From: Microvenator marinus | Lineage (GTDB): Bacteria > Myxococcota_A > Bradymonadia > Bradymonadales > Bradymonadaceae | Assembly (NCBI RefSeq): GCF_007993755.1 | Contig: NZ_CP042467.1 | Location: 620,001-684,000 of the forward strand | Length of the DNA: 64,000 bases | Direction: 5' to 3' | Part shown: one piece after another, positions 54,862 through 64,000 of the stretch | Position numbering within the stretch: position 1 is the stretch's first letter | Layout: each line of letters starts with the position of its first letter | Made by a program: the position numbers and the translations under genes | Notes under the pieces: model-generated | Seen by the model: the letters and a program-made list of their open reading frames with translations, nothing else | Database searches by the model: none | Told to the model about the DNA's origin: nothing

Positions 54862-56235
54862 ATGAAATTTTTGAGCTACTTGGTCATCAGTTTGGCCCTC
54901 TTCTGGTCAAACACTGGCTTTGGCCAAGATATCCAGAAACGCACATTGAGAAATGGCCTAGACGTGGTGGTTATCCCCTCAAGCGTGGTCCCCGTGGCGA
55001 CGATTGAGATTACAGTCAAGAATGGCGCGTTCACTGAACCGCCCGAGTTCAACGGCCTCAGTCACCTCTACGAGCATATGTTCTTCAAGGGGAATGCGCT
55101 TATCCCTAATCAGGAAGCGTACCTTAAGCGGATCCGAGAACTCGGAATCGTCTTCAACGGCACCACCAGCACCGAACGGGTGAACTATTTCTTCACCCTG
55201 CCCTCGGACAAAGTCCTCGATGGTCTCGAATTCATGCGAGCCGCCATTACCTCACCCAGGTTTGACGAGGCGGAGTTCCAAAAGGAAAAACAGGTCGTCT
55301 TGGGCGAGGTCGATCGAAATGAGTCCAACCCTTATTATTGGCTCAGCCGGGCCATCAACGAGAAGCTCTGGTACGCCCATCCGACCCGAAAGGACCCTCT
55401 GGGTGACCGCCAGTCTATCATCGACGCGACGACCGCTCAGATGCGTCAGATGAAGGACACGTATTATGTTCCGAACAACGCCGTATTGATGATCACTGGG
55501 GATGTCCAAGCCGAACAAGCCTTCAAGATGGCTGAAGACGTCTTCTCATCTTGGACCCGTGGCCGCGACCCATTTGCGCGAAATCCTGTCCCTGCTCATC
55601 CTCCGCTCAAAAAGAGCGAAGCGGTATTGGTGGTCAAGGACGTTCAAATGCCATCCGTGTCGTTCAACTGGCACGGACCAAGTGTGGACGCCGACCCCAA
55701 AGCGACGTTCGCAGCTGATGTACTCAGCTACATCATCGCGCAACCCTCGTCGCAATTTCAAAAGAACCTCGTAGACTCGGGTATTACGCTTAACTCCTAC
55801 CTGAGCTACTACACACAGCGTTATACCGGCCCCATTTCACTTTCGGCTCAGGTGCAGCCCGATAAACTCGAAGATGCGATTCAGTTTCTCCTGCGCGAAA
55901 CCGAGAAATTCAGCTCGCCCGAGTATTACACGGACGAGCAGCTTGAGTCTGCAAAAACGCTCCTCGTTATCGATGACCTGTACGGCCGAGAGCAGATGAG
56001 CTCTTTCACTCACACGGTCTCGTTCTGGTGGGCAACAGCAGGGCTCGACTACTACCTGAACTACCTTGATGGACTGCGCTCAGTGACCCGCGACGACATC
56101 AACCGGTATGTAGCCATGTACATCCGAAATCGTCCTTGGGTTCTCGGAGTAATCGCGTCGCAAGCAGTTGTGGACGCCAAGCAAGTTAACGAAACCAAAC
56201 TCCTAAATCTGGGCGAATCCGCCATTTCCAAATGA
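54862..56235 (+). CDS. secreted M16 zinc metalloprotease, catalytic subunit
   Basis: After a signal peptide (MKFLSYLVISLALFWSNTGF) the protein has the inverted zinc motif of family M16, HLYEH at about residues 68-72, and the distal ligand Glu149 in VVLGEVDRNE. A second M16 half-domain follows, as expected for a 457-residue member. Family members degrade or process peptides in the periplasm or outer space. Its stop overlaps the start of the next M16 gene in ATGA, so the two form one pair. The ribosome-binding site AAGGAGA lies about 6 bases before the start. Confidence 0.92.
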   Translation: MKFLSYLVISLALFWSNTGFGQDIQKRTLRNGLDVVVIPSSVVPVATIEITVKNGAFTEPPEFNGLSHLYEHMFFKGNALIPNQEAYLKRIRELGIVFNGTTSTERVNYFFTLPSDKVLDGLEFMRAAITSPRFDEAEFQKEKQVVLGEVDRNESNPYYWLSRAINEKLWYAHPTRKDPLGDRQSIIDATTAQMRQMKDTYYVPNNAVLMITGDVQAEQAFKMAEDVFSSWTRGRDPFARNPVPAHPPLKKSEAVLVVKDVQMPSVSFNWHGPSVDADPKATFAADVLSYIIAQPSSQFQKNLVDSGITLNSYLSYYTQRYTGPISLSAQVQPDKLEDAIQFLLRETEKFSSPEYYTDEQLESAKTLLVIDDLYGREQMSSFTHTVSFWWATAGLDYYLNYLDGLRSVTRDDINRYVAMYIRNRPWVLGVIASQAVVDAKQVNETKLLNLGESAISK

Positions 56236-57680
56236 GAAATCGACCCATGAAGAATACTTTTTTGATCATGTTTTTAGCGTTCCTCAGCGCGTGTTCGGCC
56301 AGACCTGAGCGTTTCGAGGAGGGCACGGCCGAAGAGGCTCTGAACAACGAGACTGCCCAGGCCGAGGTTGTTGAAGAGGAATTGCCGGAACTCGAACCGC
56401 TTAAACTCCTCAGCACAGAACCTCAGGTCTCTCTGATAGGAACGATGGGCATGACCCAGAAGTTCAAGGTCGGCGATATCACCGTGATTCACCGAGTTAC
56501 ACCGGCGAATCAGGTCGTGGCTGCTCGGGTCTATATCGACGGAGGGGCTAAGAACCTGACGCCAGAGACTCAGGGTATCGAGCGTCTTGCGCTCGACGTC
56601 TCAGCCAGCGGCGGAACGCTCAATATCCCGCGAGATGAGTTCACTTCTAAGCTCAATAGTATGGGCTCAGAAGTCTTCTCGTTCGCTGATAGAGATTTTT
56701 CGGGATACGGCATGAAATCCGTTGTCGAGAACTTTGAGACGACATGGGAACTTATGGCAGAAGCGGCCTTCTATCCGGCATTCCCACAAGAGGAGATCGA
56801 CGTTCGACGCCAGCAACAACTCGCCGAAATCGCGTCGATCACTGAAGATCCTGACTCTCGAGTTCAGTACGAGGCATCACGACTCTTTTTCAAAGGCCAC
56901 TCCTATTTCAATCTGCAAATCGGTGTCGCAGAAAACCTGCAAAGGGTCTCTTCGCGCAAACTCGCCCACTATCACCGAGGCCTGCTCAAGCCCGAGCGAA
57001 TGTTGATTGTGGTCGTCGGTAACGTACCGACGTCGAAACTCACAGACATGATTAAATCGTCCTTCGCAAGGCTTCCGTCCACAGGCGCTGAGCCCGTTCA
57101 GCCGGAGGCGTTCACCTCCGAGGCTGGCGTCGAGATCGTAGACCAGGACCTTCCTACGAACTATGTACTCGGGTACTTCGAAGCCCCCAAACCAGGAACT
57201 CCGCAATACCCGGCAATGGTTGTCACCATGGAGTTCCTGCGCGACCGACTCTTTGAGGAAGTTCGCACGAAGCGCAATCTTACTTACGCTGTGTCAGCGG
57301 GTATTGGGGCCAATCGCTCTAACTACGGCTATCTCTACGTCACGGCTACCGACCCCGTCACAACCATGGGAGTTATCTTCGACCAGATCGCCGAAGTTAA
57401 GCTGATGCAAATCCCCAAACAAGAGCTCGACCAGGTCGTCAACGTTTTCCTCACCGAACACTACATGAATCTGGAAACCAACGGAGGCCAAGCTTCAATG
57501 CTAGCCAGAGCCGAGTTGATTTCGGGCGACTGGAAAACGGCAGAGGCATTCTTGGCCGAGGTTCGTGCTGTGACGCCGGAAGATGTGCAAATGGTGGCTC
57601 AGCGTTATCTGACCAACTTCCGTTTCGGTGTTGTTGGAAAAGCTTCCGCTCTGAACGCTAAGACCTTCCAGCCTCGCTAA
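56232..57680 (+). CDS. M16-like protein without zinc motif, lipoprotein
   Basis: The fold and segment order are those of an M16 peptidase, but the position of HxxEH reads IERLALDVSA, so no zinc site is present. The N-terminus has a lipoprotein signal ending in LSAC (about residue 21). Pairs of one catalytic and one inactive M16 subunit form heterodimeric clamshell proteases, as in mitochondrial processing peptidase and several bacterial periplasmic proteases; the inactive one positions the substrate. The start overlaps the catalytic gene by 4 bp. Its stop lies one base before the convergent mscS stop. Confidence 0.9.
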   Translation: MRNRPMKNTFLIMFLAFLSACSARPERFEEGTAEEALNNETAQAEVVEEELPELEPLKLLSTEPQVSLIGTMGMTQKFKVGDITVIHRVTPANQVVAARVYIDGGAKNLTPETQGIERLALDVSASGGTLNIPRDEFTSKLNSMGSEVFSFADRDFSGYGMKSVVENFETTWELMAEAAFYPAFPQEEIDVRRQQQLAEIASITEDPDSRVQYEASRLFFKGHSYFNLQIGVAENLQRVSSRKLAHYHRGLLKPERMLIVVVGNVPTSKLTDMIKSSFARLPSTGAEPVQPEAFTSEAGVEIVDQDLPTNYVLGYFEAPKPGTPQYPAMVVTMEFLRDRLFEEVRTKRNLTYAVSAGIGANRSNYGYLYVTATDPVTTMGVIFDQIAEVKLMQIPKQELDQVVNVFLTEHYMNLETNGGQASMLARAELISGDWKTAEAFLAEVRAVTPEDVQMVAQRYLTNFRFGVVGKASALNAKTFQPR

Positions 57681-57681
57681 T

Positions 57682-58566
57682 TCACACGGAAGGGCTTCTA
57701 AAGGCCCTGGCAGACTCAATCTCTTCTTCAACCCTGAACTGTCTTGCGTGGGGATAGACGATCTTGTTTTCGCGAAATGCGCGCTTCACTCGCTGGGTGA
57801 TGTCTGTCACGAACGCTTCTTCATATCTCACGTCGATGACGTAAGCCTTACAGGTGAGCGTGGTGATGTAGTGATTGCCCTCTACGGCATCCTTTAACTC
57901 GACCTGAACCGGCTTTGGCAGATAGACGTAGCGCGACGTAACGCAGGCCTCGTAAGCGATTTGGCGTGCAAGGTCGAAGTCTTCGGAGATCGAGATGTAG
58001 AACTTGACCACGACCATCATGTCGAGGGCACCAGAGTTGCCGCACGAAACCACGTCGGTCAGGAATTTGTTGTTTGGAATCGAGACTTCGTTGTCATCCA
58101 AGGTTGCGATCCTGACCACCCTCAGACCGATTTCTTTGACCTCTCCGTACGTTTCTCCGAATTGGACCCGGTCTCCAACTTGGAATGGCCGGTCAATCAG
58201 AATCAGGATTCCTGAGACGATACTTGAAGCCATGTCCTTCATCGCGAAACCGAACGCCACCAAGAGCGTGGTTCCAAGCCCGTAAAGAGCTGTCTTGTCG
58301 CCCGCAAGCAGGGTCACTGCCGCAAGGTAGCTCGCGATACCAAAGATCGCGATCCGGGCAAAGCTCGAGAGCTTCTTCATGAGAAGGCGCCGCTTTGCCT
58401 GCCCTTCGCCCAGTCGGTCCAGCGTTGCCGAAATGAAGCGATTGACCAGGAAGGCCACCGCGACAATCGTGAGCGTAGTTATCAGACGACCTACGTCGAA
58501 GAACTCGATCGCTGCCGCGATTTCTTCGGGCTTCGGCTCTAATTGTGCGAGGATGAATGTATTCAT
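57682..58566 (-). CDS. MscS-family mechanosensitive channel
   Basis: The 294-residue protein carries the MscS core: a pore-lining helix region (LGTTLLVAFGFAMKDMASS), a short beta domain opening with ILILIDRPFQVGDRVQF, and the SIPNNKFL motif. Earlier membrane helices at about 27-45 and 70-100 precede the pore helix. MscS channels open when membrane tension rises and release solutes during osmotic downshock. The length is that of a small MscS. The gene starts in an ATGA overlap with the large membrane ATPase gene upstream, so the two are translated together. Confidence 0.93.
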   Translation of the reverse strand: MNTFILAQLEPKPEEIAAAIEFFDVGRLITTLTIVAVAFLVNRFISATLDRLGEGQAKRRLLMKKLSSFARIAIFGIASYLAAVTLLAGDKTALYGLGTTLLVAFGFAMKDMASSIVSGILILIDRPFQVGDRVQFGETYGEVKEIGLRVVRIATLDDNEVSIPNNKFLTDVVSCGNSGALDMMVVVKFYISISEDFDLARQIAYEACVTSRYVYLPKPVQVELKDAVEGNHYITTLTCKAYVIDVRYEEAFVTDITQRVKRAFRENKIVYPHARQFRVEEEIESARAFRSPSV

Positions 58567-61500
58567 GAATATAGGAAATTTGAGTTTTTAAGATGACGAA
58601 TAACTTGTCGAAAATAGAGTGGTGCGAGCTTCACCCGCCCCTTCCCCGCCGCAATAATGACACCTCGGGAATCGAAGTAATTGACTGCCAGTGCACAAAA
58701 CGAGCGCTCAAGATTGGTGATTTCCGAGATTTCTTCAACGCTCAGCTCTCCATGCTGAGCAACCGCGGTGAGGACGAACCAGTGGCCATCATCCCGGGCT
58801 TCCATATCCGAAGTCTTGGGCCGCTTGAAAAGTCCTACCTCAAGCACCGTCTCATCACGCAATCTCAGGCTGCGCAGCCAATAGAGCATCGCAAGTCGCG
58901 GATTGCCCCCCGAGAACTCATGGAGATATTTAAAGAACCCGCTCGAAGTCTTCACCACATCAACGTAGGCGGTTTGATCCTGAATCTCGGCATCGACCAT
59001 CATCTCGGTGTAGCTCAACTCGTACCCCGAGAGCGCGTGCCTCTCCTCAATCATTTTCTGGATTTCTTCGCGCGACCACATTTCCATTCGTATCACTTTT
59101 CCAAACATGTGCTGCCGACTGCGCACTCTATTCACGTAGTCCCAAGCAAACAGATTAAATGTTAGAAGCCAAAAATGCTTCGAGTCTGTCAACGTCACAA
59201 CTTGCAACAACGTGTCCAATCCCACAAAGCCGCCAATGGTTCTCATATACATGTGGTGACAGTCGTCCAAAATGATGACTCTGGGCTCCATCTCAAGAAT
59301 CAAAGCGACCAATTCCTCCACCGCAGATGGGGGCTCCTCAATTCCCAACAAGGTGCAGATCTCCTCGATGGTGTCCGACTTGGACTTTGATTTGGTTGAA
59401 ATTTCGAGACGTGTGACTTCAAGTGAATCAATCGAAGACGCAAAAGTCGACGTCAAGGTAGACCGCCCCATCCCCACCTCGCCGACAAGTGCCACCGAGC
59501 CTTGCTCTCGGCCGCTTTGCCAGTCTTCAAACGCCACTTTCAATGAACTCAAGTCACGCTCTTTGACCACGGGACTCTGGGTTGGGCAGTCGCCAAAGGG
59601 CGAAAAGAGTTCCCGGTAGTCAGTGGGTACATCTTCAGGCTGCCACTCTCTATGGTCGGATTTGCTTTCATTGGCTTGAAGCTCGATCCGCTTTCGAAAC
59701 CAAAAGTTTGTCACTGTCGAGTACCACTCGGTATCAACCAAATATTGCCGACCGAGTCGCACAAGCTCCACGACAACGATGTAGACTGTCGCGGCCGCTA
59801 CGATGAGCACCCCGTAAAACCTGTCCTTATGTTCATTGACTAATGTCACAGCCCTCGGAAGTTTTGGGCCAGCAATCTCGGTAAAGAGCTCTGCAATCTC
59901 GTTTCGCCAAGTCGCAATGACCCAGTACACGATAAGCGCCAGGACAAGGTACGCGCTAAGCTCCACCACATGTGTGAGCACCGAAATGCCCAGAAATTCT
60001 CGTAATCCTGCGGGTATCAGCGTGGCCAACAACCAGAAAAGCGCCACGACTCGGGCGCTTCTCACAAGCTTTCGTCCGCGCTCTTCGCCAAGGTCAAACC
60101 ACGAAACATTGTCTTGGAGTTCCAGCCCTAGCCCGATTGAGTATTCCGCCTGTCTGATGCTCCTTGGCAGGAAGACCGCACGCGCGAAAGCGTTTATCGC
60201 GCTGTAAACAAACACCCATTCGATGACGGTCTCGGCGTAGCTGAACTCGGGAAAGCTATCCGTGAAATACTGCATCGGGTACATCACCGCTTTGAAGATG
60301 ATGAACGGCCTCGCCAGCGCAAACGCGATCTCCAAGAGCGTAGCCACTTTGCCGGGCCAACGCCTAAACGTGCGACCTCGGATGGCGCGCTCGTATAGCC
60401 AGTGAAACCCTACCGACAACCATTTCAGGCTCACGAATACAAGAATTAGAAAGATAACGATGCGAGTCGCGAGCCCGAAGAGCCAAGTGAAGATATCCAC
60501 CGAAAACCCAAGCTCCATGACTTCCGCACTTCGTTGACGGCCCCAGTGGAGAACCCGCTCCGCTGCAATCTCAAAACTAATGCTCGCGTCGCGAAAAGTC
60601 TCATCGCTGAATCCGAAAAGTCCGGTTTGCGCGCTAGAACTCGTAAGATCGAGCATGTCAGCCATCGTACTCGAGTAGAATCGAGCACGCTGATTTACCG
60701 CCGAGATTCGTCTCTCCCAAAATGCGCTCATCTGGCTCGCAGTGTCGAGTTCCTTGACTCTAAGGTCTACCTCGGCTTGGGCCACCGCAATTCGTTGTTT
60801 GATAAGTTCGCTTGAACCCTCCTCCACACGTGCTTGCTCGGCCGCCAAATTCTGAGTTGCGCGGTTTAGACTTTCTCTAAGAGTGGCACTCTCTGATTCT
60901 AGTTTTCGCCACTCTCGAAACGATTCCAGCAGAGTTTCGCGCGCGACCCTGCGCCTAGACAAGACATCTGCAAAGAGTGCATCCGCCTTGTCTACTTTGG
61001 CCTGCGTGGGCGGCATTTCTTTGACTTCATCCAATCCATTTAGAATCTTACCCTTCCACTCGGAGTAGACCTCCGTCTCAGAATCTTCGAGCTTCTGCAA
61101 CGCAGAGATCTTCTCATTGGCGAGTCGTGTCGCAGCCAAGACTTCTTCGGCCAACTCTCTCTCGCGCTGTAGGAGTTGACGCATTGCCGCATCGCGAGCC
61201 ATTGCTTCACGCGCGAGAGCCTCCTCAACCCTGTTCTCAGCATCTCTCTCAGCATCCCTCGCCTTTGTTTCCCGTTCTTCGCGCTCTTTCGCGGCCCCTT
61301 CCAAATTCTCCAGTGTGGCAATCTGAGCTTCGACAGATGCCAGTTCGCTCTTGACCGCGCCCAATTCCGCTCCGAGTAGTTCGAGCCCAGATGCCAGAAA
61401 AGCGATTTCAGTCTTTGCCTGAGCGAGTCTAACGGGCTCGCCATTTTGCTCGCTCAAAAGCTCGAATTTGGCTTCTTCCCTGATGACATTGCGCTCTAAC

Positions 61501-61757
61501 TCAGCCTTTTTTTCTTCGAGCTTAGCAATATCCTCAACGATTGAGCTCTTTAATAAGCGACCCGCATCAAGGCTCTCTACCTTGAGCTCTTCAGGGGTCT
61601 GGTCCGCCACCGTGTTCGCAAGAGTGTCAACTTCCGGGCTCGGCGTCTCGACTTTAGGTTGATCCTCGGTTAGGGTCTCCTGCGCAGAAACAAGGTTCCA
61701 TGCGCTCCCAACAACGACCAGCGTTAGAATCCAAAGTATTTTTCTCATCCACCACAT
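58563..61757 (-). CDS. large membrane protein with MscK-like coiled coil and P-loop ATPase domain
   Basis: From ATG 61757 the product is 1,064 residues. A signal-peptide-like segment (about 1-26) is followed by a coiled coil of some 330 residues (about 50-380), then about six membrane helices (about 421-667), as in the sensor half of MscK/KefA. After the last helix comes a cytoplasmic-type ATPase: Walker A reads GEVGMGRST (about 759-767) with Arg for the usual Lys, Walker B reads RVIILDD (about 826-832), and SGGNPRLAM looks like a sensor-2 motif. A winged-helix-like end follows. The next gene is MscS, coupled by a 4-bp overlap. The arrangement suggests an ATP-binding sensor or gate regulator for the channel; no known channel of this design comes to mind. 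The number of membrane passes, and so topology, is estimated by eye. Confidence 0.75.
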   Translation of the reverse strand: MWWMRKILWILTLVVVGSAWNLVSAQETLTEDQPKVETPSPEVDTLANTVADQTPEELKVESLDAGRLLKSSIVEDIAKLEEKKAELERNVIREEAKFELLSEQNGEPVRLAQAKTEIAFLASGLELLGAELGAVKSELASVEAQIATLENLEGAAKEREERETKARDAERDAENRVEEALAREAMARDAAMRQLLQRERELAEEVLAATRLANEKISALQKLEDSETEVYSEWKGKILNGLDEVKEMPPTQAKVDKADALFADVLSRRRVARETLLESFREWRKLESESATLRESLNRATQNLAAEQARVEEGSSELIKQRIAVAQAEVDLRVKELDTASQMSAFWERRISAVNQRARFYSSTMADMLDLTSSSAQTGLFGFSDETFRDASISFEIAAERVLHWGRQRSAEVMELGFSVDIFTWLFGLATRIVIFLILVFVSLKWLSVGFHWLYERAIRGRTFRRWPGKVATLLEIAFALARPFIIFKAVMYPMQYFTDSFPEFSYAETVIEWVFVYSAINAFARAVFLPRSIRQAEYSIGLGLELQDNVSWFDLGEERGRKLVRSARVVALFWLLATLIPAGLREFLGISVLTHVVELSAYLVLALIVYWVIATWRNEIAELFTEIAGPKLPRAVTLVNEHKDRFYGVLIVAAATVYIVVVELVRLGRQYLVDTEWYSTVTNFWFRKRIELQANESKSDHREWQPEDVPTDYRELFSPFGDCPTQSPVVKERDLSSLKVAFEDWQSGREQGSVALVGEVGMGRSTLTSTFASSIDSLEVTRLEISTKSKSKSDTIEEICTLLGIEEPPSAVEELVALILEMEPRVIILDDCHHMYMRTIGGFVGLDTLLQVVTLTDSKHFWLLTFNLFAWDYVNRVRSRQHMFGKVIRMEMWSREEIQKMIEERHALSGYELSYTEMMVDAEIQDQTAYVDVVKTSSGFFKYLHEFSGGNPRLAMLYWLRSLRLRDETVLEVGLFKRPKTSDMEARDDGHWFVLTAVAQHGELSVEEISEITNLERSFCALAVNYFDSRGVIIAAGKGRVKLAPLYFRQVIRHLKNSNFLYS

Positions 61758-61779
61758 CTCTACTTCCGTGCTCCGGTAC

Positions 61780-62832
61780 ATGCGATTAGACCGCACTCAG
61801 TGGAAAATACAAGCTCTGACCGCACTCTTTGTGTTGTCTACAGGGGCATGTAGCGTGAATCGACCCTCTGAGCAGTGGGAAAACGATGTCCTGGAGGCGC
61901 AAACCCAACTTGACCGTGGGACTCTCAAAGATCTGAAGCCACTCGAAGACGCCGTTCAATCCGCCCCCGATGAGCCCCGGAAACGCTGGGCGATAAGACA
62001 ATTGGCGGAGCGTCTTCTCGAAGAAAAAGATAACGAGGCGGCAGAAAAATATCTGTTGGCCCTGACCGAACCACCTATCATCGACCCGCATGGCGCATGG
62101 GCGATGTACCAACGATCTTTGCTTCAAAAATCTAAGGGAAATGATCGCGAAAGCTTGAGCCGACTCTTTGCAACAATTCTCAAGTATCCAAATGAGATTC
62201 CAGCTGAGTGGGCCTTAGAAGACTTGAAGAAGCGCTATCTCGCCAGCGAGAGCTTCGAGGGTTGGGACGCTGTCTTGAAGCGAATGTACCCGTGGATTCA
62301 AGCGTCGATGCTCGCCGAGAACCTGCTCTTTGAACGTGGAAGAAATTACGACGTCAACCTCAGAGACCCAGACCGCGCGATGAAAGTCTATGCCCAAATC
62401 TGGGCAGACCACCCCGAAGAAGCACTCGCCGACGACGCCATTTGGGAGATCGCTCAAATTCAAGCGCGAGTCCAAAACTGGAACGCAGCGATCCACAACT
62501 TCATGATTTTGACCGAAAGCGGCGAATCATCATGGTTCGTGGGCACATACAATTCGCAGTGGTTGGATGACGCAATCCTCGAAGTCGCACACGCGTGGGT
62601 TCATCTCGGTGAACATGAAAAGGCGAGCCAATGGTTCTTGAGGTTTGTGGACGAGTACTCAGACAGTCTGCGCGCGCCTTATGCATTATGGCTCGGAGCC
62701 GAATGCTACAGGCTCATGGGAGCCGACGAACACCATCTTTCACTGATGAAGCGCCTTACACGCGAATATCCCGACTCAAAATGGGCGCGGCGCGCCTCGG
62801 CACGACTCGGTCCGGGAGGTGGCGATGATTAA
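61780..62832 (+). CDS. TPR lipoprotein upstream of the Mla-type transporter
   Basis: The N-terminus MRLDRTQWKIQALTALF, then STGAC, looks like a lipoprotein signal with a non-standard lipobox. The rest is helical, with TPR-like pairs (VYAQIWADHPEEALADDAIW and LGAECYRLMGADEHHLSLM) typical of BamD or YbgF-type scaffold proteins. GTG 61768 is an alternative start. The 3' end overlaps the start of the ABC ATPase gene by 8 bp, so it belongs to that operon. The divergent ATPase gene begins only about 23 bp away. The role might be to hold the transport complex to an envelope membrane. Confidence 0.65.
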   Translation: MRLDRTQWKIQALTALFVLSTGACSVNRPSEQWENDVLEAQTQLDRGTLKDLKPLEDAVQSAPDEPRKRWAIRQLAERLLEEKDNEAAEKYLLALTEPPIIDPHGAWAMYQRSLLQKSKGNDRESLSRLFATILKYPNEIPAEWALEDLKKRYLASESFEGWDAVLKRMYPWIQASMLAENLLFERGRNYDVNLRDPDRAMKVYAQIWADHPEEALADDAIWEIAQIQARVQNWNAAIHNFMILTESGESSWFVGTYNSQWLDDAILEVAHAWVHLGEHEKASQWFLRFVDEYSDSLRAPYALWLGAECYRLMGADEHHLSLMKRLTREYPDSKWARRASARLGPGGGDD

Positions 62833-63565
62833 AGTCGAAAACATCACCAAACTGCACATGGGGGAGCCGGTTCTCCAAGACGTTTCTCTGGAGATTCGCG
62901 AGGGGGCAAACCTCGGGCTCATCGGCCCAGGTGGCGCCGGAAAGTCACTTTTGGTGAAGATCATCTGCGGTCTGGTGCGACCCGAAAAAGGTCGCGTAAC
63001 CATTGACGGAACGGATGTCTTTTCGCTCAATGAAATCGAGCTTGCAGACCTCAGATTCAAAATCGGAATGCTTTTTCAGAACTACGCTCTCTTCGACTTC
63101 ATGAACGTTGGGGATAATATTGCGTTTCCTCTGAGGCAGGCCGGAAAACTCACGGAAGAAGAAATCGGCGCGAAAGTTCAAGACATCTTGACTTCAGTTG
63201 ACCTCCCTACAATCGCGGCCAAGTACCCCAATGAACTCTCTGGCGGTATGAAGAAACGCGTCTCTTTTGCGCGAGCAGTCATTCCACAACCGCCTATCGT
63301 CTTCTACGATGACCCCACCGCAGGACTTGATCCTGTCACCAGCTCCAAGATTTTCATCTTGCTGAGAGAGATGAGGGATAAGCGCGGTGTTACATCGATT
63401 ACGATTAGCCACGATATCGAGGGAATTAAGGATATCTGTGATAACTTCGCCCTGCTAGACAAAGGAAAGTTGGTTTTTCTGGGCGACCGTAGTCAAATCG
63501 AAACCTCCGAAATCCCGATTGTCCGGCAATTCTGGGATGGATTCAGCGATGATGAGCTAGGATGA
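62825..63565 (+). CDS. ABC transporter ATPase, MlaF-like (MCE system)
   Basis: An ABC ATPase with Walker A GPGGAGKSL, signature LSGGMKKR and Walker B IVFYDDPTAGLDP. The KKR after the signature and DPVTSSKI pattern mark the MlaF family that powers phospholipid transport with an MlaE-type permease. Note the second acidic residue of Walker B is Asp rather than Glu. Start ATG 62825 follows GGAGG five bases upstream; GTG 62819 is less likely. It overlaps the MlaE-type gene downstream by 4 bp. Confidence 0.88.
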   Translation: MIKVENITKLHMGEPVLQDVSLEIREGANLGLIGPGGAGKSLLVKIICGLVRPEKGRVTIDGTDVFSLNEIELADLRFKIGMLFQNYALFDFMNVGDNIAFPLRQAGKLTEEEIGAKVQDILTSVDLPTIAAKYPNELSGGMKKRVSFARAVIPQPPIVFYDDPTAGLDPVTSSKIFILLREMRDKRGVTSITISHDIEGIKDICDNFALLDKGKLVFLGDRSQIETSEIPIVRQFWDGFSDDELG

Positions 63566-64000
63566 GCGCAAAAGACAAATTGCTCGTGGGCGGAATCGGA
63601 GGATTTGGAAGTGTCTTCATGTCCGTGTCTCACGCTATTGGTACGATGGCGCTCCTACTCTTGGAGATCGTGCGCTGCACGCTCCCTCCGAAGCTCGACG
63701 GGCCGGAAACATGGCGAAACATGTATCGCGTTGGGGTCAAGAGTTTCCCGATTGTCGTGGTGACGGCTGCACTCACGGGCGCCATCATGGTGATCCAATC
63801 AGGTATGTATATCGAGCAATACGGGGCCTACGGACTACTCGGTTGGGGTGCCGGTTATTCGGTGTTCAGAGAGGTCGGTCCCATCATGATTGGATTGATG
63901 TTCTCAGGCCGCGTCGGCGCGAACAATACAGCAGAGCTTGGCACCATGAAGGTCACCGACCAAATCGATGCCCTTCGCGCACTCGCCATCGACCCCATCT
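63562..64000 (+). CDS. MlaE-type permease (3' end cut by window edge)
   Basis: The first 146 residues show the MlaE family: LTGAIMVIQSGMYIEQYGA followed by LVxVREVGPI-type VFREVGPIMIGLMFSGRVGANNTAELGTM. MlaE is the membrane subunit of an MCE-type transporter that moves phospholipids between membranes. It overlaps the MlaF-like gene by 4 bp (ATGA). The remaining third and the expected MCE-domain (MlaD-like) gene lie beyond the window. Confidence 0.88.
   Translation, partial: MSAKDKLLVGGIGGFGSVFMSVSHAIGTMALLLLEIVRCTLPPKLDGPETWRNMYRVGVKSFPIVVVTAALTGAIMVIQSGMYIEQYGAYGLLGWGAGYSVFREVGPIMIGLMFSGRVGANNTAELGTMKVTDQIDALRALAIDPI

Follow-up and report, generated by a model that had tools for sequence, protein, structure and literature searches.

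A predicted membrane ATPase and an MscS-family channel form a conserved two-gene unit in Myxococcota

The locus analysed here raises the question of what a large membrane ATPase could do for a channel of the MscS family. The usual picture of these channels is of tension valves that work on their own, some variants having additional domains within the one polypeptide. The locus lies in a 64,000 nt stretch of Microvenator marinus (NZ_CP042467.1, positions 620,001-684,000; assembly GCF_007993755.1), which is called the window below; feature coordinates are positions within it. A first-pass annotation, made from the sequence of the window, had described an ATPase gene joined through a 4 bp ATGA overlap to a downstream MscS gene. 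Both open reading frames (ORFs) are present at that place on the minus strand, with the ATPase gene upstream and the MscS gene intact, and the ORFs, AlphaFold2 and Pfam bear out the overlap and the domain make-up (Table 1).

Homologues were gathered through the ATPase protein alone, without MscS, and the downstream DNA was then scanned with an MscS profile. The ATPase family is present in 104 of the 284 sampled Myxococcota genomes, or about a third, and ten named Myxococcota loci, including that of Lujinxingia vulgaris, were retrieved. In 103 of the 109 Myxococcota ATPase genes an MscS domain begins at most 700 bp downstream on the same strand. Between the stop codon of the ATPase and the MscS domain the median distance is 60 bp, and 54 ATPase genes end in an NTGA context that permits a 4 bp overlap. 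Because MscS played no part in gathering the homologues, this adjacency means that the pairing is not due to chance: ATPase and MscS are a conserved two-gene unit.

Three loci at contig ends have little or no downstream DNA (L023, L137 and L138; handles in L denote loci and those in G genomes), which leaves 106 assessable loci. MscS is directly downstream in 103 of these, and the remaining three retain the partner further off. In L051 it lies at a distance of 2.1 kb, beyond a gene inserted on the opposite strand; in L127 the distance is 3.5 kb and the partner is 68% identical to one from class D (see below); in L047 the same contig carries it at a distance of about 60 kb. Seeming absences of MscS elsewhere (e.g. 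L006, L033, L043, L060, L065, L068 and L110) were discarded, as they stem from over-long ORF calls and a domain-level search found the channel. The gene coupling of ATPase and MscS seen in the first-pass annotation therefore stands, the homologues being far from mostly without mscS nearby.

Presence and absence of the two genes also go together. The M. marinus genome contains 52 AAA_22 matches and six PF00924 matches above threshold; among the 52, only the two copies of the module adjoin an MscS-type gene. Window-type MscS (E < 1e-30) occurs in 13 of the 20 genomes of the host's family, with every match beside a window-type ATPase, and was not found in the six genomes of this family in which the window-type ATPase was not found. 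The seventh (G015) contains only an ATPase fragment at a contig end. Beyond Myxococcota, the evidence consists of three alphaproteobacterial plasmid records, the sole plasmid relatives (Novosphingobium US6-1 pLA3, Novosphingobium PP1Y Mpl and Caulobacter NIBR2454), and each of them has MscS directly behind the ATPase gene. On the Caulobacter plasmid (L172, 7726-9569) two different MscS genes stand in tandem there. Two successive MscS reading frames also come after a single ATPase gene in the class A locus L056 (10732-12605).

All-against-all comparison of the N-terminal parts of the ATPase proteins gives five classes and some singletons. Class A, which contains the window protein (23 members), class B (32) and class D (18) have a coil and membrane helices. 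Tested members of class C (26) match Na_H_Exchanger (PF00999; E values of 3e-15 to 2e-23), and tested members of class E (6) match AA_permease/SLC12. The exchanger assignment rests on Pfam PF00999, as the L047 exchanger domain had no match in the PDB. Class E resembles the human NKCC1 and KCC structures over much of the length (phmmer E values of 4e-76 and 7e-74); the E values against TIGR00930 are 4e-107 to 5e-114, yet the matches stay under that model's own cut-off. Two class E loci (L160 and L161) were tested by domain search and the other four (L159, L164, L166 and L167) were assigned by BLAST grouping. The class E proteins are 1700-1784 residues long where complete, and MscS follows them. 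As judged from these matches, the membrane module of the ATPase is interchangeable and can be a sensor-like part, a predicted Na+/H+ exchanger or a predicted NKCC/KCC-like SLC12 cotransporter. This exchange of N-terminal parts had not been foreseen in the first-pass annotation.

Each class has its own line of channels. On a tree of the MscS partners the N-terminal class of the ATPase takes four changes, the minimum for five classes, and thus the partners show no swap across class borders, including in genomes that have at least two modules. Within classes, ATPase and MscS distances correlate (Spearman coefficients of 0.62-0.84, against at most 0.52 for shuffled partners). M. marinus itself has a second module, the class C copy C1 near 2.37 Mb (L032, 1753-6584), in which the ATPase gene again shares an ATGA overlap with MscS. 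The exchanger part of C1 groups with class C by BLAST and is under the PF00999 threshold, and its partner is a diverged MscS below the Pfam cut-off.

By sequence, the window's channel protein belongs to the MscS family. It matches MS_channel_2nd (PF00924) with an E value of 4e-20 (72 bits; cut-off 20.2), and the NCBIfam MscK/MscS models with E values of 1e-18 to 1e-17. It has three membrane helices and a β-domain at residues 112-173. Its PDB matches are MscK, MscS, MscM and YnaI, with full-length profile matches to the MscS, MscK and MscM structures. The TM3 pore helix is followed by a PFxxGD-type turn and the C-terminal cage, in a conserved alignment (window: AFGFAMKDMASSIVSGILILIDRPFQVGD).

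The ATPase protein was modelled with AlphaFold2 on 36 homologues. The model (mean predicted local distance difference test score, pLDDT, of 83) consists of a signal-like helix, a long coil, six hydrophobic helices within residues 420-673, and an ATPase domain with a winged helix that together span residues 708-1064. The N-terminus resembles a signal peptide, with a hydrophobic peak of 1.93 and the site LVSA/QE, as it does in relatives. The signal peptide and the coil that follows indicate a periplasmic start of the protein, and positive-inside counts likewise place the coil in the periplasm. For the roughly six membrane helices of the first-pass annotation the model has six hydrophobic helices, of which the sixth is probably interfacial. 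It is poorly conserved as a span (median Kyte-Doolittle value 1.65, with values above 1.6 in 56% of members) and is flanked by basic residues on both sides, so that five spans and one interfacial helix are likelier. The loop charges agree with spans 1-5, the basic loops being inside. With six full spans behind a periplasmic coil, the ATPase would end up on the outer side of the membrane, an arrangement that we reject on the charge pattern and the transporter-fused relatives. In known Na+/H+ exchanger and SLC12 families the C-termini are cytosolic. As the same ATPase domain comes after exchanger and SLC12 domains in the sister classes, and in view of the charge pattern, the domain is very probably cytosolic, and not on the wrong side of the membrane for the coupling that the first-pass annotation had proposed.

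The ATPase domain matches Pfam AAA_22 above the cut-off (E value 7e-8), as do 34 of 36 members; beyond AAA_22, searches of the protein against Pfam, NCBIfam and PADLOC gave little of note. With its P-loop, Walker B motif and winged helix it has an ORC/STAND-type fold, in which the window protein carries an arginine for the Walker A lysine. The VIA-align scores are about 14-15.5 (Z) against ORC1/Cdc6, TnsC and NSF-D2, and matches to NLR (NB-ARC) proteins are weaker than these. No sensor or repeat array comes after the winged helix, as it would in a strict STAND protein; the chain terminates there.

These closest folds, together with a weak MarR_2 match of the winged helix, would fit a membrane-tethered transcription regulator that binds DNA in the manner of ORC/Cdc6 and reports the state of the envelope, with MscS as one co-regulated target. 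The class A winged helix is acidic on average, however (mean net charge of -3.5, and -1.7 for the recognition helix; the window's copy is near neutral), which disfavours DNA binding. Winged helices of STAND and ORC proteins serve also as structural parts of the switch. We therefore regard a transcription regulator as very unlikely. NACHT, NB-ARC and nSTAND-like matches, those to NACHT and nSTAND being weak and confined to some members, and the NLR structures among the fold matches bring to mind an anti-phage or cell-death system, in which a STAND-like sensor would open the MscS pore as its effector. PADLOC gave nothing above noise for the window pair (best E value 0.87), and no relatives were found in 50,697 phage records or, with the patterns used, in viral contigs. 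The stable inheritance by class, the conserved neighbourhood with its Mla-type genes and the fusion of the ATPase to housekeeping ion transporters also speak against such a system, to which we give hardly any credence.

The replacement of the Walker A lysine is real (Arg765), and the Walker B motif VIILDD and the SGGNPR motif are present. From these features the first-pass annotation had proposed that the domain may be mainly a nucleotide-binding switch and less a hydrolase. For the system as a whole this is not supported, because 81% of the relatives retain the lysine. Of 108 homologues, 88 have Lys at the Walker A position, 16 have Arg and four have another residue. The arginine of the window protein is common to two class A relatives and turns up in other classes as well. 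The first Walker B aspartate is retained in 20 of 22 class A members, and the second glycine of GGNPR in all 108 homologues. Given this distribution of Lys and Arg, most family members are likely to have in this domain an active switch that binds nucleotide; in the window protein the switch may be weak or unable to hydrolyse nucleotide. Three exchanger-class ATPases (L162, L163 and L168) have changed nucleotide motifs, e.g. GVAGIGNAAV, and VVDG or VVEG instead of the Asp pair, which suggests that hydrolysis was lost in some lineages.

We lean slightly towards a reading in which the two genes make up one ion and turgor homeostasis module, with the ATPase passing the state of its membrane module to the MscS pore. 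The upstream protein would be a receptor-like subunit of the inner membrane, in which a periplasmic coil and a membrane bundle precede the cytosolic AAA+/STAND-like ATPase and its winged helix; in the sister classes an Na+/H+ exchanger or SLC12 cotransporter would take the place of coil and bundle. The downstream protein would be the MscS-family pore. The nucleotide and assembly state of the ATPase would relay envelope strain or ion transport to this pore, and the relay would set the timing of solute release. The fusion partners of the ATPase, PF00999 exchangers and NKCC1/KCC-like SLC12 proteins, are all parts of ion homeostasis and count in favour of such a module. Direct gating of MscS by nucleotide is plausible.

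Shared function alone would suffice for the pairing and the co-inheritance if the two proteins did not touch. They would then be co-expressed in the same osmotic response, and the ATPase would act on its own fused membrane protein, not on MscS. For example, the coil and membrane protein would remodel or sense the envelope, or the transporter would move ions, and MscS would be an ordinary tension valve. This is in line with the covalent joining of the ATPase to transporter or sensor, and never to MscS in the loci read, and with the distance of the MscS gene in L047. It sits less well with the gene order and the tight spacing or overlap, which are retained across Myxococcota and Alphaproteobacteria with at least five N-terminal modules, and with MscS as the sole constant neighbour. 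We consider such a division of labour somewhat unlikely.

Several points nevertheless weigh against a module in which the ATPase controls the pore. No fused ATPase-MscS ORF was found among the loci read, each of which has two genes, and two ATPase proteins (L066 and L147) seem from their sequences to be without membrane helices. The correlation of ATPase and MscS distances also reflects the species tree. Walker A is altered in about 19% of the homologues and Walker B is variable in the transporter-fused classes, and therefore nucleotide hydrolysis is not required everywhere. Physical contact, the direction of control and gating by nucleotide are features that we infer.

The pairing and the swapped front ends suggest an undescribed mode of control over cell salt and volume. 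We also put forward, tentatively and with some doubt, a stronger proposal: that the module represents a new class of ATPase-gated channels, in which one cytosolic AAA+/STAND-like switch, borne by a strain sensor, an Na+/H+ exchanger or an NKCC/KCC-like cotransporter as interchangeable membrane modules, would act directly on the gate of an MscS pore dedicated to it. A single nucleotide-dependent switch would then govern both the uptake of salt and the release of pressure, as a bacterial cell-volume regulator made from the transporter types of animal volume control. The ATPase, a separate membrane protein, has a whole MscS family as its partner, across the phylum and beyond. Should it gate the pore, turgor release in bacteria would be under a control linked to energy or transport, and the fusions of NKCC/KCC type, with their partner for volume release, could serve as a simple model for the coupled regulation of volume. 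No description of the MscS-ATPase pair was found in the open-access papers searched; the two-gene module is real and conserved, and apparently undescribed.

Table 1. Features of the ATPase-MscS locus, all on the minus strand; residue numbers refer to the ATPase protein.
Feature	Position in window	Strand	Basis or remark
Membrane ATPase gene, 1064 residues	58563..61757	-	Start ATG at 61757, MWWMRK...; ORF, AlphaFold2 model, Pfam
Predicted signal peptide, residues 1-27, ...LVSA/QE (A-Q cleavage-like site)	61677..61757	-	Hydrophobic segment; present in relatives too
Long coiled-coil/helical region, putatively periplasmic, residues 55-416	60510..61595	-	AlphaFold2 helices; side predicted
Membrane bundle, hydrophobic helices 420-460, 468-501, 503-529, 558-589, 593-616, 649-673	59739..60500	-	AlphaFold2 models
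AAA+/STAND-like ATPase domain, residues 708-981	58815..59636	-	Pfam AAA_22; VIA-align fold matches
Walker A residue, Arg replacing Lys (R765 in GEVGMGRST)	59463..59465	-	Sequence
Walker B Asp-Asp (D831-D832, in VIILDD)	59262..59267	-	Sequence
GGNPR motif (GxP/sensor-2-like; in SGGNPR)	58896..58910	-	Sequence and alignment
Winged-helix domain with conserved hydrophobic C-terminal tail (NSNFLYS)	58566..58796	-	AlphaFold2 model; conservation
4 bp ATGA overlap, ATPase gene/MscS gene	58563..58566	-	From ORF coordinates
MscS-family channel gene, 294 residues	57682..58566	-	PF00924; PDB matches

On its upstream side the ATPase gene faces, head to head, a plus-strand set of genes (61768-63999) for a TPR (lipo)protein, an ABC ATPase and an MlaE permease, and the same layout is found again at seven other class A loci (L052, L033, L053, L055, L057, L058 and L060). 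In view of these Mla-type neighbours the module may have a tie to lipid transport or to the asymmetry of the membrane. On the other side, two neighbouring M16 peptidase genes with a mutual ATGA overlap are convergent with the MscS gene (54862-57680, plus strand); one relative (L052) retains this pair together with a gene for a protein kinase.

Among known systems, MscK (KefA) of Escherichia coli is a single polypeptide made up of a periplasmic domain, eleven transmembrane (TM) helices and the MscS core (PMC9653487). The module described here shares with it a signal-peptide-led periplasmic helical domain, a membrane bundle and an MscS pore with three helices and a cytosolic cage, in the same order. 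It differs in that the pore is a separate gene at all loci read and that an ATPase and a winged helix come after the bundle. A diverged N-terminal half of MscK, with its periplasmic domain and sensor paddle, may thus have parted from the pore and gained the ATPase, an origin that is compatible with the homeostasis module but that we judge unlikely. The membrane domain modelled alone (pLDDT 87, predicted template modelling score 0.76) has MscK (7uw5, residues 504-745) as its fifth structural match, with a Z score of 7.7 and a root-mean-square deviation of 5.0 over 164 residues; this is below threshold, a Z score under 13 not being decisive for helical bundles. With residue 504 of MscK as its starting point, the match fits a colinear arrangement from TM1 onward, and the resemblance of the bundle to MscK TM1-6 is suggestive as a lead. 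Foldseek gave no significant PDB match for this model (MscK E value 5.8), which does not by itself make the fold new. MscS_TM (PF12794) has no match at the ATPase loci in 15 genomes, hhalign against E. coli MscK stays under 2% probability with no N-terminal homology, and a genuine MscK is located separately in one relative (G068). The first-pass comparison with MscK is thus upheld for the architecture, but not for sequence homology.

In channels of the bCNG type an MscS-family pore carries a cyclic-nucleotide-binding domain in the same chain. The present pair likewise joins an MscS-type pore with a putatively cytosolic nucleotide-linked domain, here a P-loop ATPase carried by another membrane protein. 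The KATP channel (SUR with Kir6), in which a separate membrane subunit of ATPase fold partners a pore, is a functional analogue and not a homologue: there the ATPase is of the ABC type, the pore is a potassium channel and regulation is established, whereas regulation is proposed here. With the STAND, ORC-Cdc6 and TnsC ATPases the domain shares the P-loop, Walker B, the GxP motif and the winged helix next to it, but it is C-terminal on a membrane protein, is without a TPR, WD40 or LRR sensor array and is paired with a channel. Na+/H+ exchangers (PF00999) and SLC12 cotransporters of the NKCC/KCC type resemble the N-terminal domains of the sister classes, where, unlike in the known transporters, they are fused to the ATPase and winged helix of the same family and followed by MscS; the window protein itself has a coil and a membrane bundle in their place.

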